From: Pelagibacteraceae bacterium AG-470-E16
Lineage (GTDB): Bacteria > Pseudomonadota > Alphaproteobacteria > Pelagibacterales > Pelagibacteraceae
Direction of reading: 5' to 3'
NCBI GenBank assembly: GCA_003209195.1
Contig: QCSF01000002.1
Coordinates: 1-64,000 of the forward strand
DNA: 64,000 nt
Below the pieces are notes generated by a model. The model worked only from the letters and a program-made list of their open reading frames with translations, was not told the DNA's origin and did not search any database. The position numbers were made by a program, and so were the translations under genes. Position 1 is the stretch's first letter; every line of letters starts with the position of its first letter. This document shows positions 5,535 to 5,815 of this stretch, piece after piece.

Positions 5535-5611
5535 CGCGGGGTGGAGCAGTCTGGTAGCTCGTCAGGCTCATAACCTGAAGGTCCTTGGTTCAAATCCAAG
5601 CCCCGCAACCA
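5535..5611 (+). tRNA. Initiator tRNA-fMet (anticodon CAT)
   Basis: This is a 77-nt tRNA with CCA encoded. The acceptor stem is CGCGGGG/CCCCGCA, giving the unpaired C1:A72 that identifies bacterial initiator tRNA. The anticodon loop is CTCATAA. The anticodon stem is TCAGG/CCTGA, so only two of the three consecutive G:C pairs normally found in initiators are present; the outermost of the three (29:41) is A:U. Its 3' part is duplicated at 5770-5815. Confidence 0.96.
5563..5608 (+). repeat. 46-bp direct repeat, copy 1 (3' part of tRNA-fMet)
   Basis: This anticodon-to-acceptor part of tRNA-fMet reappears at 5770-5815 with three mismatches and no gaps, 207 bp downstream and in the same orientation. 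Identity to the 3' half of a tRNA is the usual form of attachment sites used by tyrosine recombinases. Confidence 0.85.
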
Positions 5612-5648
5612 AGGATACCAATTTCACTTTCATAAAATATTAAAGTTT

Positions 5649-5669
5649 CTCCTGCCGAACTCCTGCCGA
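5649..5669. repeat. Tandem decamer CTCCTGCCGA (two copies, 11-bp period)
   Basis: Two exact copies of CTCCTGCCGA lie at 5649-5658 and 5660-5669, between the tRNA and its degenerate copy, in a patch more G+C-rich than the surroundings. Short direct repeats near a core attachment site resemble the arm-type binding sites of tyrosine integrases. That role is an inference. Confidence 0.6.
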
Positions 5670-5769
5670 TTGCAAATCTGGGGTTGAAAACTTATGTTTT
5701 TGATTAAATTGGTTTCGACGTAGAAATTAGGGTTTTAGATAGTTAAACAAGTCAGTTAGTCATATGGTA

Positions 5770-5815
5770 CAGGCTCATAACCTAAAGGTCCTTGGTTCAA
5801 ACCCATGCCCCGCAA
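5770..5815 (+). pseudogene. Degenerate 3' fragment of tRNA-fMet (candidate attachment-site remnant)
   Basis: The 46 bases match positions 5563-5608 of tRNA-fMet at 43 positions (differences G to A, T to C and A to T). The upstream half of the tRNA is not recognisable, so this cannot form a cloverleaf. Together with the intact tRNA it brackets about 160 bp carrying the decamer repeats, as expected for the residue of an excised or decayed element that had integrated into tRNA-fMet. It overlaps the 3' end of the antisense VTC-domain gene and supplies that gene's last codons and stop. Confidence 0.85.

Follow-up and report, generated by a model that had tools for sequence, protein, structure and literature searches.

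A probable decayed remnant of a small integrative cassette at the initiator tRNA gene within the O-chain island of a SAR11 bacterium

The window analysed here, i.e. the whole stretch of 64,000 bases, comprises bases 1-64000 of contig C2 (168 kb) from a Pelagibacteraceae (SAR11) genome of 0.97 Mb, which is 76% complete and consists of 39 contigs. Its left part contains an intact tRNA-fMet next to a tRNA-Val (Table 1), and over its entire length of 78/78 positions this tRNA-fMet is identical to that of several relatives. Left of the tRNAs, genes for a cytidylyltransferase, a DAHP-synthase family protein and SDRs fit surface glycan synthesis, as do the genes for an O-antigen ligase, a DegT aminotransferase and methyltransferases to their right. 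Further along the contig follow the genes for 23S rRNA (70.7-73.5 kb) and 16S rRNA (73.9-75.4 kb), and rRNA genes are the usual border of the O-chain cluster in Pelagibacterales (PMC7318151, PMC11898729). The tRNA pair sits within the O-chain island.

Table 1. Features around the tRNA pair, with positions in the 64-kb window.
Feature	Position	Strand	Remark
tRNA-Val(GAC)	5412..5486	-	divergent neighbour of tRNA-fMet; ARAGORN, Rfam
tRNA-fMet(CAT), intact	5535..5611	+	3' part would be the attL-side core; ARAGORN, Rfam
53-bp core (CGTCAGG...CAACCAA)	5560..5612	+	tRNA positions 26-78; recurs in cassettes of relatives; equals attP of circular L071
Cassette left end	5613..5669	+	matches to G014 and cassette L247
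Arm-type direct repeat, copy 1 (CTCCTGCCGA)	5649..5658	+	
Arm-type direct repeat, copy 2	5660..5669	+	11-bp period
Residual interior	5670..5766		no recognisable cargo; right end expected near 5710-5766, not confirmed
Decayed right core, attR-like	5767..5819	+	46-nt conserved part 5770-5815 (43/46)
VTC-domain gene	5775..6404	-	first island gene right of the remnant; stop and last ~13 codons inside the tRNA fragment

The feature that drew attention to the locus is a 46-nt direct repeat. As originally predicted, bases 5563-5608 of the tRNA recur 160 bp further on in the same orientation with 93% identity, and no other place in the rest of the 64 kb, on both strands, reaches at least 27/46 matches. 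The 5' half of the tRNA does not recur before the copy, where an anchored alignment was no better than shuffles (p ~0.25), which also agrees with the prediction. Because the unit shared among relatives (see below) is 53 bp long, the copy in the window has to be read as a 53-bp core decayed at both edges. It retains 40 of the 47 fixed core positions and is the most decayed among 30 fragments. The VTC-domain gene ends within this fragment, so that its last ~13 residues (AGHGFEPRTFRL) are encoded by the antisense strand of the tRNA sequence. The arrangement, in which the tRNA is restored at one end and a 3' fragment lies at the other, is that of tyrosine-integrase elements targeted to tRNAs. A decayed copy close to its gene could also be an ordinary tRNA pseudogene that has nothing to do with integration: all or part of tRNA-fMet would have been duplicated in tandem, with the 5' half of the duplicate either missing from the start or lost afterwards, and the ...GGTA before the copy resembles a tRNA D-loop. 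However, we regard this origin as very unlikely, given that the sequence upstream of the copy does not match the tRNA 5' half significantly, that the breakpoints coincide with a core found throughout the family, and that the spacer contains the family left-end repeat.

The comparison with relatives, which have small and AT-rich genomes, provided the context for these features. The segment was searched in 148 of them, which yielded one tRNA-fMet each and extra 3' fragments starting at tRNA position 26. After orientation, every fragment turned out to be an identical 53-bp unit, located downstream of tRNA-fMet and bounding inserts; in the window the same core, tRNA positions 26-78, is likewise repeated downstream in the same orientation. 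Hence, the larger inserts between tRNA-fMet and its 3' copies that the original prediction suggested to look for do exist, one of them with an integrase, and a circular element carries the core as its attP. A recurring right end (...ATTTTAYGGGCAGAAAGGTACGTG) precedes the fragments. The combined pattern of right end and core was found in 21 of 397 family genomes with 29 copies, compared to none for the reversed pattern used as control. Altogether, 22 complete cassettes could be delimited between core copies; they range from 485 bp to 5.6 kb and occur singly or as tandem arrays behind tRNA-fMet. Their left ends belong to type A (ACACCAACRCTTTTTT...AAGTTTTTC plus repeat) or type B (AATTTARCCTTCCACTAATTTTT plus repeat), mostly with a direct repeat of 11-bp period that exists in several variants (CTGAACACA, GTGACACA, CTGACACA, TGAGTGCA, TGCCGA, TGACG).

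The cargo of these cassettes consists mainly of secreted proteins, nucleases and restriction systems, and also includes a trypsin-like protease. Two cassettes (L239 7237-9979 and L248 9418-9930) carry a type IIG restriction-modification pair and a methyl-directed restriction enzyme. In 19 of the 22 cassettes all cargo reads leftwards from the right end, in one no ORF is listed, and the integrase-less cassette L031 has one additional forward ORF. An integrase-like ORF is absent from 21 of the 22, with the profile search covering some of the cargo only. Several further observations concern the family as a whole. Unrelated cargo proteins (in L031-L040, L071 and L238-L250) begin with a common signal-peptide-like leader (MKKLLGIVVLGLLLSS...), as if a 5' module for expression and export were common to the cassettes. 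Similar cargo is present in two genera behind differing arm repeats (L247 7602-10604 and L249 8402-10227), as if arm address and cargo had been exchanged. Furthermore, the intact tRNA-fMet and the displaced fragment often differ in their T-stem allele (L031, L034, L038, L240, L248), the alleles being mostly self-consistent, and because of this difference it seems that an incoming element replaces the resident 3' half of the initiator tRNA by its own.

The left end of such a cassette can be recognised in the window. The decamer CTCCTGCCGA occurs there twice with an 11-bp period, as had been claimed, and is the sole exact 10-mer pair with at least 5 G/C at periods of 6 to 24 in the 64 kb; a direct repeat of this period downstream of the tRNA is the trait of the family left ends. 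Bases 5642-5668 align with the left end of the intact 3.0-kb cassette L247 (AAAGTTT-TTCTGCCGTACTCCTGCCG) with 24 matches in 27 columns and one 1-nt gap. This is the best-scoring place for the L247 left end in the whole window, and none of 5000 shuffles attained the score. Allowing at most one mismatch, the arm CTGCCGNACTCCTGCCG of the window was found in 2 of the 397 family genomes, that of the window and that of L247, both times just downstream of tRNA-fMet. The same two genomes contain, at the same tolerance, one copy each of CTGCCGNACTCCTGCCGN, situated in the window and in the L247 left end behind tRNA-fMet. Closer to the tRNA, bases 5621-5645 match the genome G014 downstream of its tRNA-fMet in 24/25 positions and at nearly equal distance from the tRNA; in G014 a leftward-reading DUF805 gene follows. 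This DUF805 segment ends with an apparent reverse-oriented 3' fragment of a tRNA-Ser (L051 ~6740-6793), possibly another tRNA-targeted cassette. The type A left-end profile found the position in the window weakly (E 2.5, rank 3), because the arm sequences vary, and it was therefore substituted by the direct match to L247 and the family-wide rarity test. An intact cassette with the full left end of the window was not found among the relatives. The suggestion that the decamer might lie beside recombinase genes in metagenomes found no backing in viral contigs: the longer decamer-pair pattern had 0 matches, and the shorter one matched mostly in GC-rich contigs in which the repeat has no tRNA-fMet core next to it, matches that we consider as chance.

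The right end is much more decayed. The family right-end profile had no match in the window, and only GGTA is left beside the core, compared to ...GGGCAGAAAGGTACGTG before the core in the family. Anchored alignment of the bases preceding the copy to the right ends of 26 elements, to viral attP flanks and to the 5' half of the tRNA gave a best p = 0.005, which is not significant once corrected for the ~39 references, and 3 of 674 window positions were equally good. In the interior of ~100 bp, comparison with translated cassette cargo revealed nothing above chance, and cargo reading inward from the right end, as is typical of the family, is missing in the window. Since this interior is so short and without cargo, the segment was classed as a remnant and not as an intact family member. 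No counterpart of the copy was found in the sequenced genus-mates, and searches in G005, G006 and G014 did not find weak core copies either. It might be argued that the segment represents a minimal cassette that lost its cargo yet still functions, with both cores competent and serving as a landing pad for further cassettes, in line with the tandem arrays of relatives and with a core and arms that are largely intact on the left. Nevertheless, this is unlikely, because no other of the 30 fragments is as decayed as the right core and because the right end is not recognisable.

The family includes members that encode an integrase. One array element, L037, carries genes for a tyrosine integrase (PF00589), a primase/helicase-like protein and a small terminase, and is thus satellite-like. 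An integrase 76% identical to it is encoded on L071, an IMG/VR contig of 9,737 bp whose direct terminal overlap of 127 bp indicates a circle of ~9.6 kb. L071 contains the exact 53-bp tRNA-fMet end followed by a repeat of 11-bp period, i.e. an attP site, and its arm TTGACGCTCGTATGACGCCG is also the arm of the integrase-less cassette L239, identical over 20 bp. The L037 arm CTGACACACG is common to neighbouring cassettes and has TTCCTGACACACG in common with integrase-less cassettes, one of them in its own array; this case is weaker than that of L071, because CTGACACA is simply the common arm type in that genus. Such matches fit an integrase that may act in trans on cassettes with matching arms. 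No integrase was found in the remnant or in the 76%-complete genome of the window, and the family contains only 3 other relatives of the L037 integrase, which are weaker and none of which was seen adjoining tRNA-fMet. In viral contigs the family right-end pattern was found 0 times. Twelve viral contigs (L156, L162, L178, L193, L125, L161, L153, L185, L168, L117, L190, L114) contain the exact tRNA-fMet 3' core without the 5' half, apparently as phage attP sites.

Altogether, bases 5560-5819 very probably are what decay has left of a small integrative cassette, which entered the 3' part of tRNA-fMet via site-specific recombination by a tyrosine integrase. From the core, the left end, the family and its integrase-bearing members, all of which are seen in the sequence, we infer the polarity of integration, an internal deletion and mobilisation in trans. 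The intact tRNA-fMet would then mark the attL side, followed by the left end with two putative integrase arm-type sites one helical turn apart. The interior would be what remained once an internal deletion had removed the cargo together with most of the right end, and the decayed right core would be the displaced original tRNA 3' end (attR). For the integrase-less cassettes, the integrase would most likely be supplied in trans by satellite-like elements that share the core and have matching arm repeats. The original prediction interpreted the locus as att sites left after loss of an element. Its first part holds, as the core is of att type and the decamers correspond to the arm-type repeats seen in the family, but its second part has to be revised: integrase-mediated excision leaves one core, and the window has two cores and a left arm, which speaks for internal deletion and decay instead of clean loss. 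Hence, deletion within the cassette is the simplest reading, and clean integrase-mediated excision is excluded by the presence of both cores and of ~100 bp between arm and core. More tentatively, and with slightly less than even odds, SAR11 may harbour a two-part system, in which integrase-less micro-cassettes with shared ends, mostly one-way reading and often the same leader sit in stacks behind the initiator tRNA and are mobilised in trans by integrases of satellites, which use the short arm repeat as an 'address'; the window would then hold a dead cassette of one address class.

Parts of this picture are already known, namely tandem islands at RNA-gene 3' ends, integrase-less members and tRNA attP sites (PMC3146451, PMC10872708, PMC3861242). 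The closest likeness is to CIMEs and to the ssrA islands of Dehalococcoides, which are arranged in tandem and bounded by repeats of the RNA-gene 3' end, many of them without integration genes, and of which one can recombine others (PMC3146451). In contrast to the latter, the target is tRNA-fMet, the size is 0.5-5.6 kb, the left ends have arm-type repeats of several sequence types, and the integrase encoded by satellite-like elements belongs to the tyrosine recombinases, whereas Dehalococcoides uses a serine recombinase. As in CIMEs, 21 of the 22 cassettes, of which only some cargo was profile-searched, are bounded by att sites and have no integrase or transfer genes. They could likewise be mobilised by a co-resident integrase, the matching arm sequences being the one line of support. 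Streamlined plankton also contain Tycheposons and additive islands flanked by tRNAs, which have cargo of 4-200 kb linked to tyrosine recombinases (PMC10872708 and its ref. 61); in Methylophilaceae there are a tRNA-Met border and repeated 20-bp tRNA-Lys 3' ends. The SAR11 cassettes differ from Tycheposons in being mostly micro-sized and recombinase-less, with common ends and cargo on one strand; by size and missing recombinase they fall outside that class. Temperate pelagiphages have an attP that copies the 3' part of a host tRNA, with tRNA-Leu as the reported site (PMC3861242), and a tRNA attP is likewise shared with PICMI satellites (PMC10803314). L037 and L071 resemble both in encoding an integrase together with primase/helicase-like proteins, L037 also a small terminase. 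Nevertheless, the site here is tRNA-fMet and not tRNA-Leu, and most cassettes lack integrase, replication or packaging genes. The combination typical of phage satellites, i.e. an integrase plus replication and packaging genes but no capsid genes, is therefore missing from the window and most cassettes, and L037 fits it partly. We found no description of tRNA-fMet cassettes in SAR11 in the literature outside subscription journals.

The relation of the remnant to the surrounding island deserves separate consideration, since the original prediction saw in it a mechanism for gain of glycan genes. According to a published study (PMC11898729), the O-chain cluster of clade Ib.4 adjoins peptidoglycan genes and tRNA-Val/tRNA-Met, and tRNA-directed recombination is suggested. 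This locus corresponds to that of the window, with the same tRNA pair and island type and with rRNA genes at the far end; att evidence is not part of the accessible text, whereas the window shows a cassette remnant at tRNA-fMet, which does not bound the island. One could imagine that the entire O-chain island was inserted at tRNA-fMet as a single element with the core pair as its border, because it begins right after the fragment and extends to the 23S rRNA gene at C2:70.7 kb, and because PMC11898729 proposes a translocation of this island to a tRNA-Val/tRNA-Met site in clade Ib.4. However, this is extremely improbable: glycan genes lie on both sides of the tRNAs, the second core is just 160 bp away, the 76%-complete genome contains neither an integrase nor a second, distal fMet core, so that no distal att copy bounds the island, and no glycan operon was recognised in the cassette cargo elsewhere. 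For these reasons the gain of glycan genes by this route is unsupported as well.

The border itself seems to have another history. In the genus-mates G004-G006, tRNA-fMet is located behind PBP2/RodA and before pntB-pntA. On contig C6 of the window's genome (L271 3300-3640, L273 3400-9653), the site between PBP2 and pntB is colinear with G004, and tRNA-fMet and tRNA-Val are both missing; thus, the ancestral tRNA site is empty, with C2 and C6 being separate contigs of an incomplete genome. PBP2, pntB and pntA on C6 are closest to those of the genus-mates (79-88%), whereas the epimerase after pntA has 79% identity to genus g8 (G014, G035) and <30% to the genus-mates, i.e. the ancestry changes to that of a different genus immediately after pntA. 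The tRNA-fMet in the window carries the T-stem allele that is present in g8 and other genera, and the genus-mates have a different one. Judged from these sequences, a g8-type island border may have replaced the resident border by homologous recombination and brought along its own divergent Val/fMet pair, perhaps also the cassette left end, with the caveat that the incomplete genome splits these loci between two contigs. Ordinary homologous replacement is thus the apparent origin of at least one border of the island.

SAR11 cells are streamlined, belong to the most abundant bacteria of the ocean and have almost no visible mobile elements. A cassette family with defined ends, a type of integrase and a circular form makes one route of gene gain and loss in these bacteria concrete and searchable. 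Restriction enzymes and secreted proteins would move as the cargo of tRNA-fMet cassettes, the transfer or recombination itself being deduced from sequence. The remnant indicates that such insertions have also occurred in a lineage in which none is seen in the sequenced genus-mates. It is located at the very tRNA pair that was already suspected in the relocation of the O-chain island. Hence, a broken initiator-tRNA end together with intact cassettes at the same spot in relatives shows how minimal genomes may acquire and lose genes.
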